This document shows positions 6,814 through 27,791 of a stretch of 64,000 bases of DNA, piece after piece. How positions within the stretch are numbered: position 1 is the stretch's first letter; each line of letters begins with the position of its first letter. The stretch lies in the NCBI RefSeq assembly GCF_001613545.1, contig NZ_BDCO01000002.1, positions 1,054,001 to 1,118,000 of the forward strand, in the 5' to 3' direction. This stretch comes from Terrimicrobium sacchariphilum. GTDB taxonomy: Bacteria; Verrucomicrobiota; Verrucomicrobiia; Chthoniobacterales; Terrimicrobiaceae. The position numbers and the translations under genes are program-made. The notes beneath the pieces are model-generated. The model searched no databases. It worked only from the letters and a program-made list of their open reading frames with translations, and was not told where the DNA came from.

Positions 6814-6840
6814 AGGTCCGCTCCGTTCTGGAGCGGGCCT
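6814..6840. terminator. Hairpin between convergent gene ends
   Basis: AGGTCCGCTCC (6814-6824) pairs with GGAGCGGGCCT (6830-6840) with a single U-G wobble and a 5-base loop. It sits exactly between the stop of the GH4 remnant and the stop of the minus-strand dehydrogenase. No T-run follows on either strand, so intrinsic termination is uncertain. Confidence 0.45.
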
Positions 6841-7894
6841 AGGTGGATCGGTCGAAGGTCTCGAGCGTGATACGGGCGTGGACGGGTTCGCCTGCGAGAT
6901 AACGTTGGATGTTGGATAGCGCGAACTCTCCGCACCGGGGATGCTCGTCCGACGTGGGTCCGCCGATGTGCGGCGAGAGAATGGCGGAGTTGACGGAAAA
7001 CATCTCCGTCCTGCTCGTCACCGGCTCCTCGTGCACGACATCGAGCGCGACGCGCAGGCGACCGGACGCGGCCTCCTGTTTCAGCGCGGCTTCGTCCACG
7101 GTCAGGCCGCGGCCCACGTTGACAAAGACGGCATCATCCGGCAGGGAGGCCAGCAGATTGCGGGTGACGGAGAGCTGCGTGTGCGGGGTGAGAGCCTCAC
7201 ACTCAAATAGGATCTCGCTCTGCGCAAAAAGCTCTCCTAGCGAGGGCAGCGGCGTCGCGCCGTGGGCGAGAATGCACTCGGGAGGAACGCCATCGGAATA
7301 CACCGCCACGTCGACCCGGAAGGGATGAAGCAGATCCAGCAGGGCGCGGGCAATACGGCCAAATCCATGAATGCCCACCCGTCTGCCGTACAGCGATTTG
7401 GTTCTTAATACGAGGGCCGGATTTGCGCGGAGCGGGCCGTAGTCCCGGATGTAGGAGTGCCAGTCGGAGACATTGCGCAATGCGGCAAGGGCGAGCAGCA
7501 GCGCCTGTTCGGCGACTTGTTCGCACACCGCGCTGCCCCAGTTGCTGACGAGCCCGCCTTGCTCGATGAACCAGCGCGGCACCACATTGCGCACGGACCC
7601 GGCCAGATGGCAGACATAGCGAGGCAGCGGTTGCCCGGCGGCTGGCTCGGGCAGGAGGGGGGTGGACCAGCAGGCGATGATGATGGTCGGTTGAAAGCGG
7701 CGCAATACGCGGGGCCACGGCTCGGTGGTATCCAGCGGATCGTACCACTCCACGGCGACCTCGCCCATCGCGTCGGGATCGAGGCCGGGAAGGAAAAGCT
7801 CCTGCTCGCGACGGCTGATGGCAAAGAGCAGCCGCTCCGTGCGACAGGCGGTCGCCGAGGCGGGGGACGGCTGGCTTTGGTCGAGGGTTTTCAC
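6839..7894 (-). CDS. D-isomer-specific 2-hydroxyacid dehydrogenase
   Basis: The 351-residue protein fits the NAD(P)-dependent D-2-hydroxyacid dehydrogenase fold. The dinucleotide loop is GIHGFGRIA (174-182). The catalytic triad appears as R262 in VNVGRG, E290 in HEEP and H309 in SPHIGG. The family reduces 2-keto acids or oxidises D-2-hydroxyacids; in this sugar-catabolic context a glyoxylate/hydroxypyruvate-type or sugar-acid substrate is plausible. Its ATG overlaps the stop of the upstream symporter gene by 4 bases, so it is the last gene of the operon starting at 11791. The exact substrate cannot be read from the sequence. Confidence 0.88.
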   Translation of the reverse strand: MKTLDQSQPSPASATACRTERLLFAISRREQELFLPGLDPDAMGEVAVEWYDPLDTTEPWPRVLRRFQPTIIIACWSTPLLPEPAAGQPLPRYVCHLAGSVRNVVPRWFIEQGGLVSNWGSAVCEQVAEQALLLALAALRNVSDWHSYIRDYGPLRANPALVLRTKSLYGRRVGIHGFGRIARALLDLLHPFRVDVAVYSDGVPPECILAHGATPLPSLGELFAQSEILFECEALTPHTQLSVTRNLLASLPDDAVFVNVGRGLTVDEAALKQEAASGRLRVALDVVHEEPVTSRTEMFSVNSAILSPHIGGPTSDEHPRCGEFALSNIQRYLAGEPVHARITLETFDRST

Positions 7895-9693
7895 GGAGTT
7901 TCAACCAAGGGTTCGGATTCGACCGCCGCGGCGGACTGCTTTGCGCGGGTGGAGCGGCGGCTTGTGAAAATAAGCAGTCCGCCGACGCCGGCGATAAAGG
8001 CCGCGCAGAATGCCACGGCGATCCGCCCCTCCAATGTATTGGGAACCAGCAGGAGCAGCGCCATGAGCCCTCCCCAGACGACCGCCATGCGGCCGATGCG
8101 GAAGGATTGACGCGAGATTTCCGCCGGAGAACACGTTTCCTTCTCGGACAAGGGCCGCCGCATCGTGGCAAAGAATGCGTCGACCTGCTCGCGTCGTGCG
8201 GGAGAATGACGGCTGCCCGGCAGGAACCCCGAGCCGAGATACCAGAGCGAGCCCAGGGAGAAGCTGATGAGCGCCACCAGCGCGTAGGAATGCGTGCGGA
8301 TGTACTCCAGCCAGGGCGTGAAGCCCAATGTCGCCGCCAGCGACTGTACGCCGTGGATGTTGGGCAGCAGCCCGAGCAGAGTGCTGATCGCGAGGCAGAA
8401 AATCACCGTCGTCCACGCGGCCCAGTCCGGCGAGCGTCGCGTGATCAGGCACCACAGCGTTGGCACGGCGGTGGGGATGCCGAGCATCACGCTGGCATTG
8501 AGCATGAGCTGCAGCACGCCTACGTCTTTCCACGTGCTGTAGAGCAGGGCCAGCGAGATGATGAGCAGGCCGCAGACGATCGTGGCCGCCCGGCCCGCCA
8601 CGACGAGTTCCCGCTCCCCGGCCTGCGGACGCAGGATCGGCAGGTAAAACGAGCGCACGAAGATTCCCGAGTTGCGGTTGAGCCCGTGATCCATCGAGGA
8701 CATGGTGGCCGAGATCATTCCCGTGACCATCAGGCCGAGAAGGCCTGCGGGAAGGAAGCGATGCGCTATGGCCACATAGGCTCCCTCGGCAGGCTGCGAG
8801 AGTCCCGGCATGAGCGCCGCCATGTCCATGCCCAGCGCCCGTGCCGCCATGGGTGGGACGAACCAGATCAGCGACCCGATGGCAAACAAGCCCGCCGCCA
8901 GGAGCGACGCCCGCCTCGCATCGCGGCCATTGCGAGCGGAGAGGTAGCGCGTTGCGCCGAGCAGATTGTTCCCGGCGGAAAGGCGTTCCAGCAAAGTCGC
9001 GACCACCCAGAGAATCCCCATGCCGCTGGCCTGCGAGGCCGTGAAATCGAGATGCGTGGCGGGCAGTTTCTCGATGAGTCCGGAGAAACCGCCGACCGCC
9101 ATCAGCGAATGCGCGAAGACCACCAGCGTGATACCGAGCAGCATCAGGGCCTGGAGAAAGTCCCCCGTCGCCACGGCCCATGAGCCTCCCAGCGTCGTGG
9201 CGATGAGCACGACCAGCCCCGCGCCGATGATGACGAGCTTCAGGTCAAATCCAAAGGCTGGCGCGCAGAAGATGGCGAGTCCGTAAAGTGTAATGGCTGA
9301 TCCGATGACCTGGAGCGGAAGCGTCATCCAGGTGAAGAACTGCTCGTTGATCCGCCCGAGCCGCGCTCGCACCGCCTCCATCACCACCACGACCCGCATC
9401 TGGCGGCACGGCTCGGCCAGCCAAATGGCATTCAGGACAAAGGAGAGCGTATTCCCGAGGTACATGACCAGTACGATCGCGCCGTATTGGTAGGCCAGGC
9501 CGGCTGCCCCCGTGAACGTCCACGCGCTGAAGGACGCCATGAACGCCGAGGCCCCGACCAGCCACCAGGCCATCTCGCCTCCGCCGCGGAAGTATTCGCT
9601 GCTGTTGCGGGCAAAGCGGCGGGAAAGCCACCCCACGCCGAGCAGCAGGACGAAGTACAGCGCGACGACGGCGTAATCGTAGATGGTCAGCAT
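7891..9693 (-). CDS. Sodium:solute symporter (SSS family)
   Basis: The 600-residue protein has about 13-14 hydrophobic segments. Its SSS signature features include LSRRFARNSSEYFRGGGEMA near the N-terminus, AFMASFSAWTFTGAAG (helix 2) and LMVTGMISATMSSMDHGLNR. SSS proteins import sugars, sugar acids or amino acids with Na+ across the inner membrane. It is in one operon with the dehydrogenase at 6839 (4-base overlap) and a carbohydrate-binding-like secreted protein three bases upstream, so a sugar or uronate substrate is likely. The C-terminal 120 residues add a linker and two further membrane helices. Confidence 0.9.
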   Translation of the reverse strand: MLTIYDYAVVALYFVLLLGVGWLSRRFARNSSEYFRGGGEMAWWLVGASAFMASFSAWTFTGAAGLAYQYGAIVLVMYLGNTLSFVLNAIWLAEPCRQMRVVVVMEAVRARLGRINEQFFTWMTLPLQVIGSAITLYGLAIFCAPAFGFDLKLVIIGAGLVVLIATTLGGSWAVATGDFLQALMLLGITLVVFAHSLMAVGGFSGLIEKLPATHLDFTASQASGMGILWVVATLLERLSAGNNLLGATRYLSARNGRDARRASLLAAGLFAIGSLIWFVPPMAARALGMDMAALMPGLSQPAEGAYVAIAHRFLPAGLLGLMVTGMISATMSSMDHGLNRNSGIFVRSFYLPILRPQAGERELVVAGRAATIVCGLLIISLALLYSTWKDVGVLQLMLNASVMLGIPTAVPTLWCLITRRSPDWAAWTTVIFCLAISTLLGLLPNIHGVQSLAATLGFTPWLEYIRTHSYALVALISFSLGSLWYLGSGFLPGSRHSPARREQVDAFFATMRRPLSEKETCSPAEISRQSFRIGRMAVVWGGLMALLLLVPNTLEGRIAVAFCAAFIAGVGGLLIFTSRRSTRAKQSAAAVESEPLVETP

Positions 9694-9696
9694 GGA

Positions 9697-10299
9697 TCAG
9701 CGGATGCGCTCGATGATAAAGTCGTCGATGAAGAACTCACCCGTGCCGCGCCACAGAAACACCGCCGGACGCATGGCCGTCGTGTCCTCGGGGATGACGA
9801 ATTCGGCCTCCACCTTGGTCCACTTGGTGGGAAGCGGCGCGGTGGCGAAATCCTTGGGGGCATCCTGGGGAGAGAGGAAGAGGGATTGGCCCTGCCAGTC
9901 GATGGTCACGATCCCGACCGAGTCGCGACCGTTCATCATGTCCATCCTCAGCAGCATGCCGGACTGGTTGTTCTGCCCCTCGAAGTTCTTCCCCGCCTTG
10001 ACCCATAGGGACACCTTGAACTTTTCACCGGGCTCCACCGGGATCGGCGTGCCTTTGGGCGAGATGGAGATCCGCCCATTATCCTCCGAGGCCAGCCGGG
10101 CGCAGGCCTTGCCGGCGTGCGGAGAATCCTTCACCACCTCAAACGTGCAGTGCCGGTCGAGGCTGTCGTTGGGGATGTACGGAGCGTTCCAGCCCGTGGT
10201 GTCTTCCTCGAAACCCGGATCGCGTACGATATTCTGGGCGAAGAGGGTGGAGGCGGTGAGGGAGAGTGCTCCGGCGAGGAACAGGGGAAGGTGTTTCAT
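9697..10299 (-). CDS. Secreted carbohydrate-binding-like (CBM4/9-type jelly-roll) protein
   Basis: From ATG 10299 the protein has 200 residues: signal peptide MKHLPLFLAGALSLTASTLF followed by AQ, then NIVRDPGFEEDTTGWNAPY, the characteristic opening of CBM_4_9-like beta-sandwich modules. PGEKFKVSLWVKAGKNFEG and GEFFIDDFIIERI at the end complete the pattern. No catalytic domain is attached, so it may be a stand-alone glycan-binding protein in the periplasm or at the surface. It lies 25 bases after the PEP-CTERM gene and 3 bases before the symporter gene. Upstream in-frame codons to 10368 add a basic non-signal stretch and were rejected. Confidence 0.75.
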   Translation of the reverse strand: MKHLPLFLAGALSLTASTLFAQNIVRDPGFEEDTTGWNAPYIPNDSLDRHCTFEVVKDSPHAGKACARLASEDNGRISISPKGTPIPVEPGEKFKVSLWVKAGKNFEGQNNQSGMLLRMDMMNGRDSVGIVTIDWQGQSLFLSPQDAPKDFATAPLPTKWTKVEAEFVIPEDTTAMRPAVFLWRGTGEFFIDDFIIERIR

Positions 10300-10324
10300 A
10301 AGGAGGGGTGATGTTAGGATCGAA

Positions 10325-11791
10325 TTAGGCGGAGGCCGCCTTGCGACGAATAAAGCCGATCGCCGCACACAAACCCAGCGCGGCGAGCGCGACCGTGCCC
10401 GGCTCGGGTACCGCGGTCACGGTGAACTGCAGGAGATTCCCGTCGCCGCCGTAGGAGAATGACCCCGCCCAACCCGCGGACTGCGTGGCCGAGGACAGCG
10501 CAAAGGTGCCCAGCGCGATGCCCTGTGATGTCCCGCCGAAGCTGATCAGGTCGTACGTCGTGCCGATGATGGCGCCGCTCGAGCCGAGAAGGTCAAAGAC
10601 TACGCTGCCATTGCCTCCCAGCGCCGATCCCGTCATCGAGGCCGATGTCAGCGTGATCATGTCCTGCACCACGCCGAGCCGGAACTCGATCGTCGCCTGG
10701 CCCAGGAAGACGAGGCCTTTGGACGACGCGTTGCCGCCCGAGATCGTCATCGTGCCGACAGCATCGGCCGTGCCCGGCTTGAGCGTGCCGCCGCTTTCGA
10801 TGGTCACATTGCGCGCGGTCGATCCGGTGGATAATGCGATCGTGCCGTTGACCCCGAGCAGCGCACCGTTTTTCACGACATAGTCTCCCTGTCCCGTCAC
10901 GCCGGTGAATCCGGAGCCATAGGTGCCGTTGAGGAAGAGCTTGCCTCCCTCGACCGTCGTGGCGCCCTCATAGCCGCCGGTGCCGGAGATCGACAGAATG
11001 CCCGTCCCTGCTTTGGTAAAGGCGAGCACGTGGTCGGCGCGCGTGAGGTTTTCCCCGATCGTTCCGCTAAAGGTCGTATTGGTCGACTGCTCCACCCGCA
11101 GCGTACGCGTCCCTCCGGTGGTGGAAAACTGACCCGGGAACTTGATGTTACCGTTGCCGGAGAGTTCTCCGATCGTTGCGACATTCCCGATGATGCCCGG
11201 GCCGATCTCCAGGTTGCCGCCGGAGGCGAGATGCACCTTGGTATTGACGCCTACCGAGTTCACGCCGGTTCCCGTCTGGCTGGCGATGGTGAGGCTTACC
11301 GTGGAAACGGTCGAGCCATTCACCGTGATCGTGCCATTCCAGGCGGTGCTGCCGGTGAGCAGGACTTTCAGGTTCAGCGATGTTCCGGACGTGCGCTGAT
11401 CGGTCAGGGAAAAGTCTCCGCTGCCTCCCTGCGTGATGGTCAGCCCGCGGGTCGTGCTGGTCGCTCCGGAGCCAGAGGCATACAACGAAGCACCGTTTTC
11501 GATCGTCACGGTGGTCGCGCTGACGTTCCAGAGATGGATCGGCGCGTTCGATGTTACGATGTCCGCCGCGTTGGCGTTTGTCCAATAGGTCGACGGCGAT
11601 CCCGTGGAGGTCGTCGCCCAGACGAGCGAAGTGGTCGATGTGGTCCAGTCGCCGCTCGTGCCGGTCCAGTAGTAGGTACTGGCCGGGAGGCACGAGAGCG
11701 CCGCGAAGGCGGAAAGGCCCAGGAGGCGCGTGGTGGTGAAAAGTGTCCGGTGCTGGTGGGCGGGGCGGAGGCTGGCGGGGGTGGAGTTCAT
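10325..11791 (-). CDS. PEP-CTERM autotransporter-type beta-strand repeat protein
   Basis: From ATG 11791 the protein has 488 residues with a signal peptide (LLGLSAFAALSCLPAS). Next is a YYWTGTSGDWTTSTTSLVW segment, typical of the first repeat of autotransporter-associated beta-strand proteins. PATR-like units include FTKAGTGILSISGTGGYEGA and ITQGGSGDFSL. The C-terminus is a PEP-CTERM tail: VPEPGTVALAALGLCAAIGF, then IRRK. It is the first gene of the operon running to 6839 and is preceded at 11841-11858 by the block A operator. A substrate-inducible surface or matrix protein is the natural reading. Confidence 0.87.
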   Translation of the reverse strand: MNSTPASLRPAHQHRTLFTTTRLLGLSAFAALSCLPASTYYWTGTSGDWTTSTTSLVWATTSTGSPSTYWTNANAADIVTSNAPIHLWNVSATTVTIENGASLYASGSGATSTTRGLTITQGGSGDFSLTDQRTSGTSLNLKVLLTGSTAWNGTITVNGSTVSTVSLTIASQTGTGVNSVGVNTKVHLASGGNLEIGPGIIGNVATIGELSGNGNIKFPGQFSTTGGTRTLRVEQSTNTTFSGTIGENLTRADHVLAFTKAGTGILSISGTGGYEGATTVEGGKLFLNGTYGSGFTGVTGQGDYVVKNGALLGVNGTIALSTGSTARNVTIESGGTLKPGTADAVGTMTISGGNASSKGLVFLGQATIEFRLGVVQDMITLTSASMTGSALGGNGSVVFDLLGSSGAIIGTTYDLISFGGTSQGIALGTFALSSATQSAGWAGSFSYGGDGNLLQFTVTAVPEPGTVALAALGLCAAIGFIRRKAASA

Positions 11792-11840
11792 ATGGGTCGG
11801 ATGGTTGCGTCGGGGGGAAGGTGGGAACAAGGGGTTTGTC

Positions 11841-11858
11841 TATAACACAGTTTAGTAG
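11841..11858. promoter_or_regulatory. Block A operator site 1
   Basis: TATAACACAGTTTAGTAG shares the TATAACACAGTT core with the site at 14059-14077 (read on the minus strand) and most of it with 12922-12939. It lies 50 bases upstream of the PEP-CTERM start at 11791 and just after the stop of the Gfo/Idh gene. The presumed binder is the LacI protein at 12978-14066 (inference). Confidence 0.65.
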
Positions 11859-11865
11859 AGAGCAT

Positions 11866-12867
11866 TCAGGCTTGGGCGTGAGCGGCGAGGGAGGGTGCCG
11901 AGGATTCGTAAAGCCCGTGACGCATGGACTCCATGAGCCAGACGGGCTGGATCGCGTCCTCCAGGCTGGGACGCAAAGGAGCCCCGGCCCGCACGGCATC
12001 GAGGAAGGCTTTCATTTGCGCGGCGAATCCCCATTGCACATGGTCCGGCCCGCCTTCGCCGCGCTCCTCGAGGATGAGGGAATCATTATGCCAGATGCGC
12101 AGCAGCCCCGGTTTATCGGAGCTTCCCCAGATGGGCAGATCCACCGTGGCGGAGGTTTGTGAGCCGTGGATGGAAATCCGCTCCAGCGTCGCTCCGCCCA
12201 CGGGGAGGAAGTTGCACCGGACGAGCGCGCCGCTGGCGCAATCGGCCTCCACCGTTGTCGCGGTCACGCCGGGAGGCAGGGACTGATAGTGAAAGCGCGC
12301 CTTCGCTGCCGGAGATCGCGCGACGAATCCTGAGGCGTCCAGGCCATGGATGGCTGTGATGGAGAAATCGGCCTCGGTTCGCTGCCAGCGGATCATGTCG
12401 TAATTCACCTGCCAAATCGCCTCCGGGTTGATGAGGTCCGACAGAAGCTGCTGGGCGCGGGTCAGCAGCGGCATGAAGCGGCGATTGAAGCCGACCTGCA
12501 CCGGAGTGCCATGCCGGGAGGCAACCTCATTGAGCATCTCGACATCATGAACCGTGAGCCCCGGTGGTTTCTCCAGGAGGATTGGGATCTGGTGGACCGC
12601 CAGGGACCCCATGATGACGACGGCGCGCTCCGGCGGCAGGATCAGGCAAAGGGCATCGGGAGTTTCCTCCTCCAGCATTCGCTCGATGCTGCTGTAGCTG
12701 CGCCGGAATCCAAATGTCCGCCGGAAGTCCTCGGCCTTCGCCGCATCGAGATCACAGCACGCGCTCAGGACGATGCCGGATTCCTCCCGTGCCAGGTGGT
12801 GGAGGGAGGGTCCGTGGGCCACGGTGGCATGGACCCCGCACCCGATCAGGCAAATCGATACGCTCAT
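11866..12867 (-). CDS. Gfo/Idh/MocA-family oxidoreductase
   Basis: From ATG 12867 the protein has 333 residues. The N-terminus SICLIGCGVHATVAHGP is the Rossmann loop, and LLEKPPGLTVHDVEMLNE is the family EKP motif, carrying the conserved lysine of the active site. VQVGFNRRFMPL and the later AIHGLDASGF continue the family pattern. These enzymes oxidise or epimerise sugars, inositols or glycosides with bound NAD(P). The gene has its own operator (12922-12939) and lies between the LacI gene and the PEP-CTERM operon, all on the minus strand. The nine codons before ATG 12867 were rejected. Confidence 0.87.
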   Translation of the reverse strand: MSVSICLIGCGVHATVAHGPSLHHLAREESGIVLSACCDLDAAKAEDFRRTFGFRRSYSSIERMLEEETPDALCLILPPERAVVIMGSLAVHQIPILLEKPPGLTVHDVEMLNEVASRHGTPVQVGFNRRFMPLLTRAQQLLSDLINPEAIWQVNYDMIRWQRTEADFSITAIHGLDASGFVARSPAAKARFHYQSLPPGVTATTVEADCASGALVRCNFLPVGGATLERISIHGSQTSATVDLPIWGSSDKPGLLRIWHNDSLILEERGEGGPDHVQWGFAAQMKAFLDAVRAGAPLRPSLEDAIQPVWLMESMRHGLYESSAPSLAAHAQA

Positions 12868-12921
12868 GGTGAATCGCGACGAAGCTTCGATCACGAGCCC
12901 GCGCGTTGTCCAATGGGCATC

Positions 12922-12939
12922 TATTCACACAGTTTATAA
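12922..12939. promoter_or_regulatory. Block A operator site 2
   Basis: TATTCACACAGTTTATAA lies between the LacI stop (12978) and the Gfo/Idh start (12867). It shares CACAGTTTA with site 1 and has imperfect dyad symmetry (TAT...ATA around an ACA centre). Confidence 0.6.
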
Positions 12940-12977
12940 AAAAGGCCGTTCGCCTTCTGCGCTTGGCGGGTGAGAGA

Positions 12978-14066
12978 TTACACCCTGCGCGATTTTCCGG
13001 TGCGTGCCGCCGTTTTGCGCTTCGCGGCAGGCGCGGGACGCAAGGGAGGGAGCGTGGTTCCTTCGACCCATGTGCCCTCGATAAGGAGCCGTTGCGGCAC
13101 AGGCGGCACGCCGCGCTCGCCCCGCTGGATCATGGCGACGAGGAAGTCCGCGCTGGCCTCCCCGACCAGCCGGGAGTTCTCGCAGACCCCGGCCAGCGGG
13201 CCGTTGGGTTCGAACATCATCGGGCAGGCGATCGCCACGTCGCGGGGGAACCGGAAGCCCGCCTCGATCAGCATGTCCCGGACATCGAGACTGATCACGG
13301 CGGCCTCGGGGCGTACTTCGCGCATCCAGGCGCTGAGATTCTCCGGAGTCGTCCAGCCCGGCTTGAGCGGCGTCAGGAGAGGCTTTTCGCCATGGATCGC
13401 CATTTCCGCCAGGTAGGCCGCGAGGCAGTTGTGATCCACGCGCTCGTCCTGCAGCAGGCTGGAGGCAAAGGCAATACGCTTGTAACCCAGCCCGCGCATG
13501 CGCTGCATGGTTTGCAGCGTGGCCCGGTATTGCGTGGCTGCCACGCAGTGGAGCAGCGGTTGCAGCAGGGTGAAGCCAAATGTCACCGCCGAGAAATGCT
13601 CCCAGGGGAAATCCAGCGTGGCATAGGGTTTCGGCTGCGGTGCGACAAAGATGCCTGTGATGTTGCGGGATCGCAGGATGCCCGCCATGCGCTGCGGCGA
13701 GATGTCCGGCGTCTGGAGATCGAAGACCTCGACCGTGTAGCCATGGCTCTGCGCGCAGGCGACGGCGCCCTCGTAGTTTTGTTGAAAGATGGGAATCTTT
13801 CTCCAGTCGTAATGCGGCAGCGTGTTTCCCAGCCAGGCCAGCGTCCCCTGGAAAACTCGCGGACTTTGCTGCCTGCGATACACCGCCAGCGCGGACAGCA
13901 TGGGGTCGGGCTGATAACCCAGCTTGCGCGCGATTTCCTGGATGCGTTCCCGGGTCGCCACAGGAATGTTGGGATGATTCTGCATCGCCAGGCAGACCGA
14001 GGAACGATGCACTCCCGCCGCCCGGGCGACATCCTGCTGGGTGACTCGTTTGGGTTGTTTATTCAA
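12978..14066 (-). CDS. LacI-family transcriptional regulator (block A)
   Basis: The 362-residue protein has the LacI helix-turn-helix VTQQDVARAAGVHRSSVCLA at 8-27 and the hinge-helix region IQEIARKLGYQPDPMLSALA. A periplasmic-binding-protein-like sensor follows, and then a basic tail (PAAKRKTAARTGKSRR). The start is odd: the first suitable codon is TTG at 14066, inside the operator, with no ribosome site at normal distance. An AAGGAG lies 8 bases before an in-frame ATT 15 bases further upstream, so the true start is uncertain. Three copies of a shared palindrome flank its gene, the PEP-CTERM operon and the Gfo/Idh gene, indicating a local autoregulated repressor. Confidence 0.88.
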   Translation of the reverse strand: MNKQPKRVTQQDVARAAGVHRSSVCLAMQNHPNIPVATRERIQEIARKLGYQPDPMLSALAVYRRQQSPRVFQGTLAWLGNTLPHYDWRKIPIFQQNYEGAVACAQSHGYTVEVFDLQTPDISPQRMAGILRSRNITGIFVAPQPKPYATLDFPWEHFSAVTFGFTLLQPLLHCVAATQYRATLQTMQRMRGLGYKRIAFASSLLQDERVDHNCLAAYLAEMAIHGEKPLLTPLKPGWTTPENLSAWMREVRPEAAVISLDVRDMLIEAGFRFPRDVAIACPMMFEPNGPLAGVCENSRLVGEASADFLVAMIQRGERGVPPVPQRLLIEGTWVEGTTLPPLRPAPAAKRKTAARTGKSRRV

Positions 14067-14077
14067 CTGTGTTATAA
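14059..14077. promoter_or_regulatory. Block A operator site 3, overlapping the lacI-type start codon
   Basis: On the minus strand it reads TTATAACACAGTTGAATAA, an imperfect palindrome (TTAT-AAC-ACA-GTT-ATAA spacing). It covers the TTG start codon of the LacI gene and lies 70 bases before the divergent pseudopilin gene at 14147, so it could control both directions. Confidence 0.68.
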
Positions 14078-14146
14078 AAATCCCTTTTGCTCCTTTTGTC
14101 CAGTGGCAATAGGCTGCACCACGTTACTCGATTCCCCCCTTAGGAT

Positions 14147-14806
14147 ATGCCCGCACATTTTCCCCATCGTGACCCGCGCTCCTGCCGCGCGTTCTCTCTG
14201 CTGGAACTCCTGGCCGGGATCAGCATCACCGCGCTGCTGGCCGCGCTCCTGCTCCCGATGATTGTCCGGATGAAGACGCAGGCCGCCGAGACCCGGTGCC
14301 TTGCCAACCTCCGCACCCTGGCCCAGGGGACTCTGCTCTATCAGGCCGAGAATGGCGGGCTGCTGCCGCCGAACTATGCCTTCTCCGGTGGGACTCCCGA
14401 GCAAATCTGGACCGTCGAGCTGCGGCCCTACCTGAAGATCGATGACAAGGGGCGCACCGGGGCCGGCATGGAGCAGATGGCCAAAATATTGACTTGTCCC
14501 GCGATCTCCCAGCCTGCGGACAAACCGTCGAAGTGGTGGGAATCCAATTACGCCGCCGGACTCTGTTTCGGTTCGGATGGATCTCCCCAGCGGATCGCAG
14601 GTCGCAAGGCCTCGGCCACCGTGATGTTTATGGAAAGCAAAGACAGACTGCGCTCGATGTACGCAACGCCGCTGCCTTGGGAGAGCGTGCCTTACCGCCA
14701 TTCCGATGCGGTGCAAATGGCATTTCTCGACGGGCACACGGAGGCTCGCAAGCAGGCGGACATTCCGAAGTCCTTCGACGATCCGTTCTGGGGGGCAAAG
14801 CCGTGA
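14147..14806 (+). CDS. Type II secretion/type IV-like pseudopilin with H-X9-DG domain
   Basis: The 219-residue protein has a prepilin leader and cleavage site: basic N-terminus, then A15|F16 followed by SLLELLAGISITALLAALLL with Glu at mature position 5 (E20). The C-terminal part has RHSDAVQMAFLDGHTEA, in which His is followed by nine residues and DG, the H-X9-DG motif of Verrucomicrobia/Planctomycete pseudopilins. Such proteins are cut by a prepilin peptidase and anchored in the inner membrane or built into a fibre. It overlaps the heparinase-like gene by 4 bases (GTGA), so the two are made together. Confidence 0.87.
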   Translation: MPAHFPHRDPRSCRAFSLLELLAGISITALLAALLLPMIVRMKTQAAETRCLANLRTLAQGTLLYQAENGGLLPPNYAFSGGTPEQIWTVELRPYLKIDDKGRTGAGMEQMAKILTCPAISQPADKPSKWWESNYAAGLCFGSDGSPQRIAGRKASATVMFMESKDRLRSMYATPLPWESVPYRHSDAVQMAFLDGHTEARKQADIPKSFDDPFWGAKP

Positions 14807-17163
14807 GAGCAGTCGCGCCCATGGTCGTTGGACTGTGTCTCGCCGGTGCCGCCTCCGCCTGGTGTGCGGACGAGAGCGCAAAGCTGATCACCCCGGATGA
14901 GGTGGCCGCCTGCCGCGCTCAGCACGAAAAGGAGTGGCTGGCAAAAACCGCCCCCGGACAGCCTCGCCTGTTTTACGACAAGGACTCCTGGCCGGCAGCG
15001 GCGGCGCGTGTCCGGCAACTCGGCGGCGCCGGGGCGAAGTGGCGTGCATTCGCCGAGGAAACCGCGCAGGCGATCATCAAGCAGCCGCTCCCGGTTTATC
15101 GTCCTCCGGAGGAGTTTGTGGGAAAGGACAACTCGATCCTCCAGGCCCGGGAGGAGCTGTGGCAGCGCGCCGTGGGCAATAACATCGCCTTCCTCGCCTT
15201 CATGGCCCGGCTGGATGATCGTCCGGAGTACCGAGCCTACCTGCGGGAGCTTGTATTGGCCGCTCTCAAGCTGGATTCCTGGGGAGTCGGCATCTGGCGC
15301 GATTGCGACCTGGCGGCGGCGCACATCCTGAGGGGCGTCGCCATGGCCTGGGACTGGCATCGGGACATCTTCTCCGAGCAGGACCAGTCGTTCATCCGCG
15401 AGACCATCGCGCGGCGCACGCCGACGATGCTGGGTGGTCTCTACGGAAAGATCTTCTGGGGCAGGGAATACCGAGCCAATCACAACCACATCAGCGTGGC
15501 CGCGCTCGGGCTCACCGGCCTTGCCTTCCTCAATGACCTGCCGCAGGCGGCCGACTGGCTGGCGGCCTCCATGCTGGACTATGAACGTGTCGCGGCCGAC
15601 ATGAACCCCGACGGCAGCTCCGAGGAGGGTCTTGGCTATGCGAGCTATGGGATGAATTTCATCCTGCAGTTCATCGAGGGGACCCGCACCGTCACGGATT
15701 CTGCGAAGTTCTACGACTCGCCGTTCCTGAAACACGCGGCCAACTACCGCATCGGCTCCTCGACCCCCGGCCTGGAGGGCGTCCTGCTCTGGGGAGACGC
15801 GACGGGCAAGGACTACTACGGCCCGCAGCAGATCCTGTGTCGGCTGGCCTCGCAGTACGGCGATGGTGGTGCGCAGTTTCTCGCGGAGTCGCTGCCCTTC
15901 CTGCCGCGCGGCGCGGGTCCGGAGGGTAATGCCAATGACGTGCTGGCCTTTGCCCTGCTCTGGAACGATCCCTCCGTGCAGGCCCGCGCCCCGCAGCAGC
16001 TCGACTACCGCTACAAGGACTGGGAGGTGCTCACCACCCGCAACAGCTGGAAAAACGACGCCTATCTCTTCACGCTCAAGGCCGGGTTGAACAACCTCCA
16101 TCACAGTCACCTCGATGCCGGGGCGATCGCCTTCAACCTGGGCGGCTCCTGGCTGCTGACTGCTCCCGGGTATGGCGACCACGGAGCGCCGGGATTCTGG
16201 GATCGCGAGGGCAAGCGATGGACCTTCTTTTCCAATGCCACCGAGTCGCATTCGACCCTGTTGATCAACGGAAAGAACCAGCGTTTTGATCGCGAGGCGG
16301 GTGCGTCCGTCCTCAGCATGGTGTCGGCACCACGGAGCATGTTTGCCTCGGTGGACATGACGCGGGCCTACGATGGGGTGAAGAGGGTGGCCCGCCGGGT
16401 CATCCATCAGCGCGACGAGTATCTCCTGGTCCTTGATGACGTGGAGGGCGCGGAGTCCCTGCGGGCGGAATGGCTGGCCCAGGTCCCGCCCCGGGCGATG
16501 GTGCAGGACGACGGGGATGTCGTTGTGACCGCTAACTCCACGGCCAGCATGCGTCTGCGATTGCTGGGAGGTGCGGCGGTCTTTGCAGAAAGAGCGCCGA
16601 CCGTGGAGCATTTCAATCTCCCGGCGGGCAAGATGAAAACCCTGGCTGCCGCGCAGGAGGGACGACAGGTTCGTTTTGCCGCGCTTATCCGGCCCTTTGC
16701 CGCTGGGGCGATTTATGAACCCTGGAAGACGGAACTGGCTGGCGACGCCGCGAAGTCCCTCGTGACCATCAGCGGCAACGGCTGGGTGGACACTGTGGAG
16801 TCCTTCGCTGATCCCGAAATGATCGGTCAGGTGGGCGACAAGGAGGTCGGCGGCGAGGCGAATGTCCTCTCGGTCCGCCGGCAGGCGGGAGTGATTGGAA
16901 CGGTGATTCTCGCCGGGGCGAAAAGGTATGCCGGATCGTCCTGGGGGTTCGTCTCGCAGACTCCCGTGGACCTGATCGAGGAACCCTCCGCCGAGGGCGA
17001 ACGAAAGATCTCGCTCGCCCGCGAAATCAAGGGCGATGTCCGGATCGATGCTTCCCATCAACTCCTGGATGAAAACGGCCAGGTGCTAAGCCCGGGCGAA
17101 GGCGCTACCTTAACCCCCGGTGCGTACACGCTGCGCAAGACTGCCCCGGCGGCGAGTTCCTAG
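14803..17163 (+). CDS. Secreted heparinase II/III-like polysaccharide lyase
   Basis: GTG 14803 gives 786 residues with a signal peptide (VRAVAPMVVGLCLAGAASAW). The first half is an alpha-barrel resembling alginate/heparin lyases, with YRANHNHISVAALGLTG around 220. The beta-sandwich half contains HHSHLDAGAIAFNLGG (433-448), the heparinase II/III-like motif with metal-binding and catalytic histidines. The family eliminates uronic-acid-containing polysaccharides such as heparin, alginate or similar acidic glycans. The GTGA overlap with the pseudopilin stop and the block A operator upstream tie its expression to pseudopilin production. ATG 14821 is an alternative start, but it shortens the signal's n-region. 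Confidence 0.82.
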   Translation: MRAVAPMVVGLCLAGAASAWCADESAKLITPDEVAACRAQHEKEWLAKTAPGQPRLFYDKDSWPAAAARVRQLGGAGAKWRAFAEETAQAIIKQPLPVYRPPEEFVGKDNSILQAREELWQRAVGNNIAFLAFMARLDDRPEYRAYLRELVLAALKLDSWGVGIWRDCDLAAAHILRGVAMAWDWHRDIFSEQDQSFIRETIARRTPTMLGGLYGKIFWGREYRANHNHISVAALGLTGLAFLNDLPQAADWLAASMLDYERVAADMNPDGSSEEGLGYASYGMNFILQFIEGTRTVTDSAKFYDSPFLKHAANYRIGSSTPGLEGVLLWGDATGKDYYGPQQILCRLASQYGDGGAQFLAESLPFLPRGAGPEGNANDVLAFALLWNDPSVQARAPQQLDYRYKDWEVLTTRNSWKNDAYLFTLKAGLNNLHHSHLDAGAIAFNLGGSWLLTAPGYGDHGAPGFWDREGKRWTFFSNATESHSTLLINGKNQRFDREAGASVLSMVSAPRSMFASVDMTRAYDGVKRVARRVIHQRDEYLLVLDDVEGAESLRAEWLAQVPPRAMVQDDGDVVVTANSTASMRLRLLGGAAVFAERAPTVEHFNLPAGKMKTLAAAQEGRQVRFAALIRPFAAGAIYEPWKTELAGDAAKSLVTISGNGWVDTVESFADPEMIGQVGDKEVGGEANVLSVRRQAGVIGTVILAGAKRYAGSSWGFVSQTPVDLIEEPSAEGERKISLAREIKGDVRIDASHQLLDENGQVLSPGEGATLTPGAYTLRKTAPAASS

Positions 17164-22063: not shown

Positions 22064-22078
22064 ATCGAACAGTTCGAC
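22064..22078. promoter_or_regulatory. Block B operator site 1
   Basis: ATCGAACAGTTCGAC contains the perfect 13-base palindrome TCGAACAGTTCGA. It lies between the LacI stop (22093) and the GH42 start (22002). The same arms TCGAAC-N-GTTCGA recur at 23192-23206 and 27777-27791. Confidence 0.85.
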
Positions 22079-22092
22079 TCCCGAGGAGAAAA

Positions 22093-23193
22093 TCAGTCAT
22101 TCTTCGCTCGCGACTTTCGCCTCGTCGGAGTGGGTCCCGGTGCAATATCCCGCACCGTCGGCCCCGGAATCCACTCGCTTTCCAGGAGCAGTCCGGTCTG
22201 GAACGGCGGCAGCCCCGACTCGCGGCGATGAATCTGCCCGACCAGCGAATCCACCGCTTTCATGCCCTCGCGCTCGGGACCCTGGTACATCCCGGCGACG
22301 CGCCCCCGCAGGGCATCCGGCAGGTCGAGCAGGGCCATCCCCATTTCCTCCGGCACCTTCACGTCGATCTCGCCGATCCAGTCGAGAATGAAGTCATTGA
22401 GGCAGATGCAGGCATCGGGCCTGTGCTTTTTCACCCAGTCAAAAAAGCGTTTCTTGCCCTGGGGGCGGGGAGCCTCGGCGGGGTCTTCCAGATAAAGCGG
22501 AGGAGGGCCGGAGCGGGAATAGTCTATTCCCGCCAGATAGCCGGAGGTGAATCTCTGCTCCAGCAGTGTGTCGAGCCACTTGTCCAGAACGAATCCTATG
22601 CGCGTGTAGCCTGCCGCGCTTAGTCGCCGACACGCCTCCAGCGAGGTGGCATAGTGATCGTTGGCGACAAAGTTCAGTCCGGTGGACTTTGGGTGATTCC
22701 CGATCACCACCGAGGGCAGGATCGACCACACCGGGCGGCACCGTTCGATATCCGTTTCATCGCGCGAGCCGTAAATGATGACGCCCAGCGCGCCCCGTGC
22801 GACGAGGATGCGACCGAGTCGTTCCGGGGTGACGTCGGGCTCGTGAAGCCAGAAGTGATCGACGCTGTAGCCGAGCAGTTCAGCCCGTTCGCGGGCGCCC
22901 TTGAGCCGGTCGCTGACCACCGGCACCTTGAGATCGATGCGCTTGACCTTGGAAACATTGATCAAGGCCAGCATGGCGACATGGTTCTGTTTCCGCGACC
23001 GGCGCAGCTCGGCCATGAGCCGTGCGACGAGGGCATTGGTCTGGTACCCCATGCCCTCGGCCACCCGCTGGATATGCTCGCGGGCCTCGGGCGCGACCCG
23101 GGGATCGTTGCGCAGCGCGAGCGAGACCGTGGACTTTGCCACGCCGGCCGCTGCCGCGATCTCAGCCATGGAGGGGGAGGTTCTCTGCTTCAT
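22093..23193 (-). CDS. LacI-family transcriptional regulator (block B)
   Basis: From ATG 23193 the protein has 366 residues. MAEIAAAAGVAKSTVSLALR (9-28) is the LacI helix-turn-helix, followed by AREHIQRVAEGMGYQTNALV and the sensor domain. The in-frame ATG at 23214 is possible but would put the operator inside the coding sequence. With ATG 23193 the operator just covers the start codon. The C-terminal region includes VPEEMGMALLDLPDALRGRV, the usual subdomain. The three identical-arm palindromes around this gene mark it as the likely local repressor. It is transcribed toward the GH42 operon and divergently from the pseudopilin operon. Confidence 0.9.
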   Translation of the reverse strand: MKQRTSPSMAEIAAAAGVAKSTVSLALRNDPRVAPEAREHIQRVAEGMGYQTNALVARLMAELRRSRKQNHVAMLALINVSKVKRIDLKVPVVSDRLKGARERAELLGYSVDHFWLHEPDVTPERLGRILVARGALGVIIYGSRDETDIERCRPVWSILPSVVIGNHPKSTGLNFVANDHYATSLEACRRLSAAGYTRIGFVLDKWLDTLLEQRFTSGYLAGIDYSRSGPPPLYLEDPAEAPRPQGKKRFFDWVKKHRPDACICLNDFILDWIGEIDVKVPEEMGMALLDLPDALRGRVAGMYQGPEREGMKAVDSLVGQIHRRESGLPPFQTGLLLESEWIPGPTVRDIAPGPTPTRRKSRAKND

Positions 23194-23206
23194 CGAACGG
23201 TTCGAT
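23192..23206. promoter_or_regulatory. Block B operator site 2, at the lacI-type start codon
   Basis: ATCGAACGGTTCGAT is a full 15-base palindrome with one central base. It overlaps the ATG of the LacI gene and lies 107 bases before the divergent pseudopilin gene, suited to autoregulation and divergent control. Confidence 0.87.
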
Positions 23207-23312
23207 CCGAACATGCTTGAAGGCCGGTGAAATGTAAATGAACTTTGGACGCGAACTGCAGCACCGCGACTGATAGTGTTAGCGAAAAGCTGCGCGAGCT
23301 TCCCAAAGGATC

Positions 23313-27776: not shown

Positions 27777-27791
27777 ATCGAACTGTTCGAT
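27777..27791. promoter_or_regulatory. Block B operator site 3
   Basis: ATCGAACTGTTCGAT is again a full palindrome with one central base. It lies 68 bases upstream of the PEP-CTERM start at 27859, so the PEP-CTERM/GH71/SGNH part of the block has its own regulated promoter. Confidence 0.87.

Follow-up and report, generated by a model that had tools for sequence, protein, structure and literature searches.

The locus raises the question of whether three short sequences, which share a CACAGTT core and lie around a LacI-family repressor gene, are the operators of that repressor. A sequence-only reading of the window (the whole 64-kb stretch of DNA analysed) had placed this core in an AT-rich, intergenic and imperfectly palindromic frame before a PEP-CTERM/symporter operon, a Gfo/Idh gene, and the lacI gene with its divergent pseudopilin. 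The core is indeed present at the three named places, and the original coordinates lie within 1 bp of the 18-bp frame used here, TNACAC|NNGTNA, which was set by motif discovery. The three sites and the surrounding genes are as follows.

11840..11857, plus strand: predicted operator 1, CTATAACACAGTTTAGTA, approximately 49 bp upstream of the start of the minus-strand PEP-CTERM coding sequence
12922..12939, plus strand: predicted operator 2, TATTCACACAGTTTATAA, approximately 55 bp upstream of the minus-strand Gfo/Idh gene, whose ATG is at 12867
14060..14077, minus strand: predicted operator 3, TTATAACACAGTTGAATA, between lacI and the divergent pseudopilin gene
6839..7894, minus strand: D-2-hydroxyacid dehydrogenase (PF02826), presumed part of the PEP-CTERM operon
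7891..9693, minus strand: sodium:solute symporter (PF00474), presumed part of the PEP-CTERM operon
9697..10302, minus strand: CBM_4_9 carbohydrate-binding protein (PF02018), presumed part of the PEP-CTERM operon
10325..11791, minus strand: PEP-CTERM protein with PATR repeat (PF07589, PF12951), predicted target gene
11866..12867, minus strand: Gfo/Idh/MocA oxidoreductase (PF01408), predicted target gene
12978..14066, minus strand: LacI-family repressor gene with a TTG start (PF00356, E 3.2e-10; weak PF13377)
14147..14806, plus strand: pseudopilin-like protein (PF07963), predicted divergent target gene
14803..17163, plus strand: heparinase II/III-like (DUF4962) polysaccharide lyase (PF07940, PF16332), predicted divergent target gene

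There are three minus-strand transcription units, each with one site in front, and the lacI site also faces the divergent pair; the placement of one site per promoter region thus stands as first described. The intergenic label needs correcting for site 3 only, which on the minus strand overlaps a putative -10 element and holds the TTG start codon (14066-14064) of the LacI open reading frame. This TTG is the first standard start in the open frame, and the sole one upstream of the helix-turn-helix. The lacI product scores above the cutoff for PF00356 and, with 26.3 bits, just below the cutoff of 26.5 for PF13377, whereas a relative in G154, a genome from another family of the same class, passes both. 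LacI-family regulators are the nearest solved chains to the 12978-14066 product. Among the putative targets, the heparinase-like lyase (nearest solved relative the PL35 chondroitinase 9o3q), the carbohydrate-binding protein, the symporter and the oxidoreductases are carbohydrate-related. The 4.75-Mb genome holds approximately 34 matches to LacI-type regulators, a large number next to the averages published for individual groups, which reach 32 per genome in Streptomycetaceae (PMC4052901).

The CACAGTT heptamer was dropped as evidence in its own right, as its count is that of chance: the 64-kb window has three, each at a reported place, where 2.97 are expected. A longer core drawn from the alignment of all three sites, TMACACAGTTKA, has three matches in the whole 4,751,807-bp genome, all of them the reported sites, and the reversed control pattern has none. 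Composition alone predicts approximately 0.5 matches genome-wide and 0.00025 in 2.3 kb, figures that overstate the significance because the pattern was drawn from the sites themselves; the independent evidence is therefore that from relatives. The variant TATAACACAGTT occurs exactly twice, while a genome-wide search for TATAACACAGTTNNATA with three mismatches was uninformative, the control pattern having more matches.

In two congeneric genomes, G008 and G009, all three sites were found at the same positions. Operator 1 keeps 17/18 bases in G008 and 18/18 in G009, operator 2 keeps 17/18 in both, and operator 3 keeps 16/18 and 18/18, respectively. The exact core is matched by two of the three sites in G008 (site 2 carries one core change, CTCAGTT) and by all three in G009, and nowhere else in either genome. 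Identity to G008 is higher across the sites (50/54) than across the remaining intergenic DNA (166/214; Fisher p=0.007), although this conservation is modest evidence, as both genomes are close relatives.

Other genera of the same GTDB family yielded only relatives with no more than 35% identity over most of the protein, and the useful LacI relatives come from other families of the class. The G154 LacI is approximately 50% identical to the 12978-14066 product, and the site at its lacI start is TAGTAACACATGTGACTA. The pattern RTAACACANKTKA has four matches in the whole G154 genome, all in the cluster of this LacI relative; it was chosen after three of the sites had been seen, and the one before the 2-hydroxyacid dehydrogenase gene came only from the genome-wide search. 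The G154 sites precede a lacI/heparinase pair, the 2-hydroxyacid dehydrogenase gene, a PATR protein gene and an MFS plus Gfo/Idh operon, a similar gene content. The sequence-only reading had staked its claim on conservation at orthologous loci, and the sites are kept in G008, in G009 and at this distant locus. G248 carries three nearly identical sites, spaced 1.15 kb apart, before lacI, a 2-hydroxyacid dehydrogenase gene and a PEP-CTERM gene, with a heparinase gene adjoining. In each of five further relatives (L118, L119, L120, L121 and L122), a relative-specific version of the site occurs two or three times, at lacI and the next genes.

Motif discovery upstream of homologues, which had been proposed as a check, gave a family palindrome. 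An expectation-maximisation search of upstream DNA from 28 LacI relatives with at least 40% identity returned TACTcaCac|gtGtgAGTA, with a log-likelihood ratio of 91.3 against 28-33 for dinucleotide shuffles, the latter comprising only eight runs with fewer starting seeds (25 vs 60). The lacI site was recovered in the same frame, as TTATAACAC|AGTTGAATA, with an offset shared by L043, L044, L046, L088, L090, L095 and L096. A 17-bp frame aligned on the outer TAT/ATA was replaced by the 18-bp frame, which is backed by both motif discovery and the relatives. The palindrome is real, as originally described, though weak in each site. Against an operator reading stand the imperfect symmetry, the right half (AGTTKA), which has diverged from the family consensus, and the CA centre in place of the usual CG, which some relatives (L119, L121) do have. 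The left half, TNACAC, agrees with the consensus. Since the lacI site fits the family frame, the imperfect palindrome is best read as a diverged family operator with a well-kept left half.

The position of operator 3 bears on how the repressor gene might be transcribed. Two putative promoter elements were placed upstream of the lacI start codon.

14097..14102, minus strand: putative -35 of lacI, TGGACA, 36 nt upstream of the start codon, placed from a distance peak across relatives
14074..14079, minus strand: putative -10 of lacI, TTTTAT, after a 17-nt spacer and with the next 7 nt leading to the TTG, placed from sequence and geometry

Across 95 LacI genes, the distance from a TTGACA-like hexamer to the start codon peaks at exactly 36 nt, the value in 11 cases; 18 of the 95 have one in the 34-38 nt range, where shuffles average 2.3 (maximum 8), and Shine-Dalgarno-like sequences are rare, at 8 of 95. 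These counts are indicative, as the start codons were chosen by a simple rule and the relatives include closely related ones. The spacing fits a -35, a 17-nt spacer, a -10 and 7 nt before the start codon, and reads TGGACA-17-TTTTAT-7-TTG in the window. A -35 that lies exactly 36 nt before the start codon in many relatives points to a repressor mRNA that probably lacks a leader. A TTG start is unusual for a leaderless mRNA. The conserved stretch upstream of the lacI site, 14080-14102 (GACAAAAGGAGCAAAAGGGATTTT), is similar in G154/L044 (GACAAAAGATGCAATTGGGCTTTT), a resemblance that extends beyond the operator itself.

We propose, with a probability of roughly 0.9 and on the strength of the sequence comparisons above, that the LacI-family repressor encoded at 12978-14066 has its operators at the three sites, and would control itself and a small polysaccharide-lyase/uptake regulon. 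Without ligand, a LacI dimer would bind the 18-bp imperfect palindrome through its TNACAC half-sites; this ligand is probably a product of the local lyase, either a sugar or an oligosaccharide. We infer repression rather than activation, of three units: lacI itself with the divergent pseudopilin-heparinase genes, the Gfo/Idh gene, and the PEP-CTERM/CBM/symporter/2-hydroxyacid dehydrogenase operon. At lacI, the operator would cover the likely -10, the transcription start and the start codon of the probably leaderless mRNA, and because of this position repressor binding would be expected to block RNA polymerase directly. In the literature searched, we found no description of a LacI regulon for Verrucomicrobiota, and the proposal gives a glycan-lyase locus of this phylum a specific regulon that can be put to the test.

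Could the sites instead belong to another regulator, either a global one or another of the genome's LacI-type proteins? The many paralogues lend this some weight. A global regulator would nevertheless have sites elsewhere, of which the genome holds none, and the site type travels with this particular LacI in G154 and G248. The window also holds a second LacI gene with a different site, confined to its own cluster.

22093..23214, minus strand: LacI #2 of the window, with ATCGAACNGTTCGA sites

Taken together, we consider assignment to another regulator very unlikely. It is also highly improbable that the shared sequences are -10 promoter elements (TATAAC/TATAAA-like) with an incidental CACAGTT part. 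The flanks are AT-rich and site 3 does overlap a putative -10, but it is CACAGT that is invariant rather than the AT-rich flank, and the core is unique in the genome, as -10 elements are not. Moreover, a standard sigma-70 consensus scan of 11700-14250 found no promoter, the lacI -10 included, and relatives carry regulator-specific versions of the site. Chance resemblance between short AT-rich intergenic sequences would account for CACAGTT alone, at some three expected occurrences per window, but not for a longer core that is unique genome-wide and conserved, nor for an independently recovered family motif, and we regard it as negligible. The reading of the sites as binding sites of the 12978-14066 product is thus supported.

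The ATCGAACNGTTCGA-type 15-bp palindromes occur in the genome only at 22064-22078, 23192-23206 and 27777-27791: at the LacI #2 start and upstream of two genes, one for a GH42 beta-galactosidase and one for a PEP-CTERM protein (27859). They are probably the operators of LacI #2, and probably also what the sequence-only reading had called block B. Both regulators thus have a site at their own start and before neighbouring sugar genes, although LacI #2 differs in its odd, 15-bp palindrome and in its recognition helix.

Most LacI regulons in the literature act locally on carbohydrate genes; the regulator typically controls its own gene too, and the operators are usually even palindromes (Ravcheev et al. 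2014, PMC4052901). The proposed regulon resembles these in its local regulator, its even, near-palindromic 18-bp sites, its predicted autoregulation and the carbohydrate genes among its neighbours and putative targets, and a palindromic site common to the regulator gene and the neighbouring putative targets is present. In contrast, its lacI site is CA-centred and includes the start codon, whereas most surveyed motifs are CG-centred and >75% of sites fall between 140 and 30 bp upstream of the start codon; the survey covered seven phyla, Verrucomicrobiota not among them (PMC4052901). Even palindromes with a different or degenerate centre make up 78/1303 published LacI motifs (PMC4052901). A central CG is therefore usual rather than defining, and the CA centre does not disqualify these sites as those of a local LacI-family regulon. 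The predicted lacI geometry, with a promoter within 36 bp and an operator at the start codon, is reminiscent of AcuR of Rhodobacter sphaeroides, which is autorepressed and leaderless, with its promoter and an inverted-repeat operator in the 36 bp before the start codon (PMC3017554). AcuR is a TetR-family protein with a mapped leaderless transcript, in contrast to the lacI transcript, which is predicted from promoter geometry.

The regulon would be a new example of a well-known kind of gene switch, and it is the leaderless arrangement across the family that is of most interest. We give an even chance to the broader proposal that many Verrucomicrobiota LacI-type repressor genes have leaderless mRNAs, with the self-operator spanning, at a fixed offset, the -10, the transcription start and the start codon, such that the cognate operator can be read beside the start codon. 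If true, regulons could be assigned across a poorly studied phylum from the bases beside each repressor's start codon, as an operator located there allows the sites elsewhere in each genome to be found. Another LacI subgroup, with the helix motif HYSTVS (L056, L062 and L076), has a different palindrome in common, GCTCAAACTGTTGA, located just upstream of the coding region.
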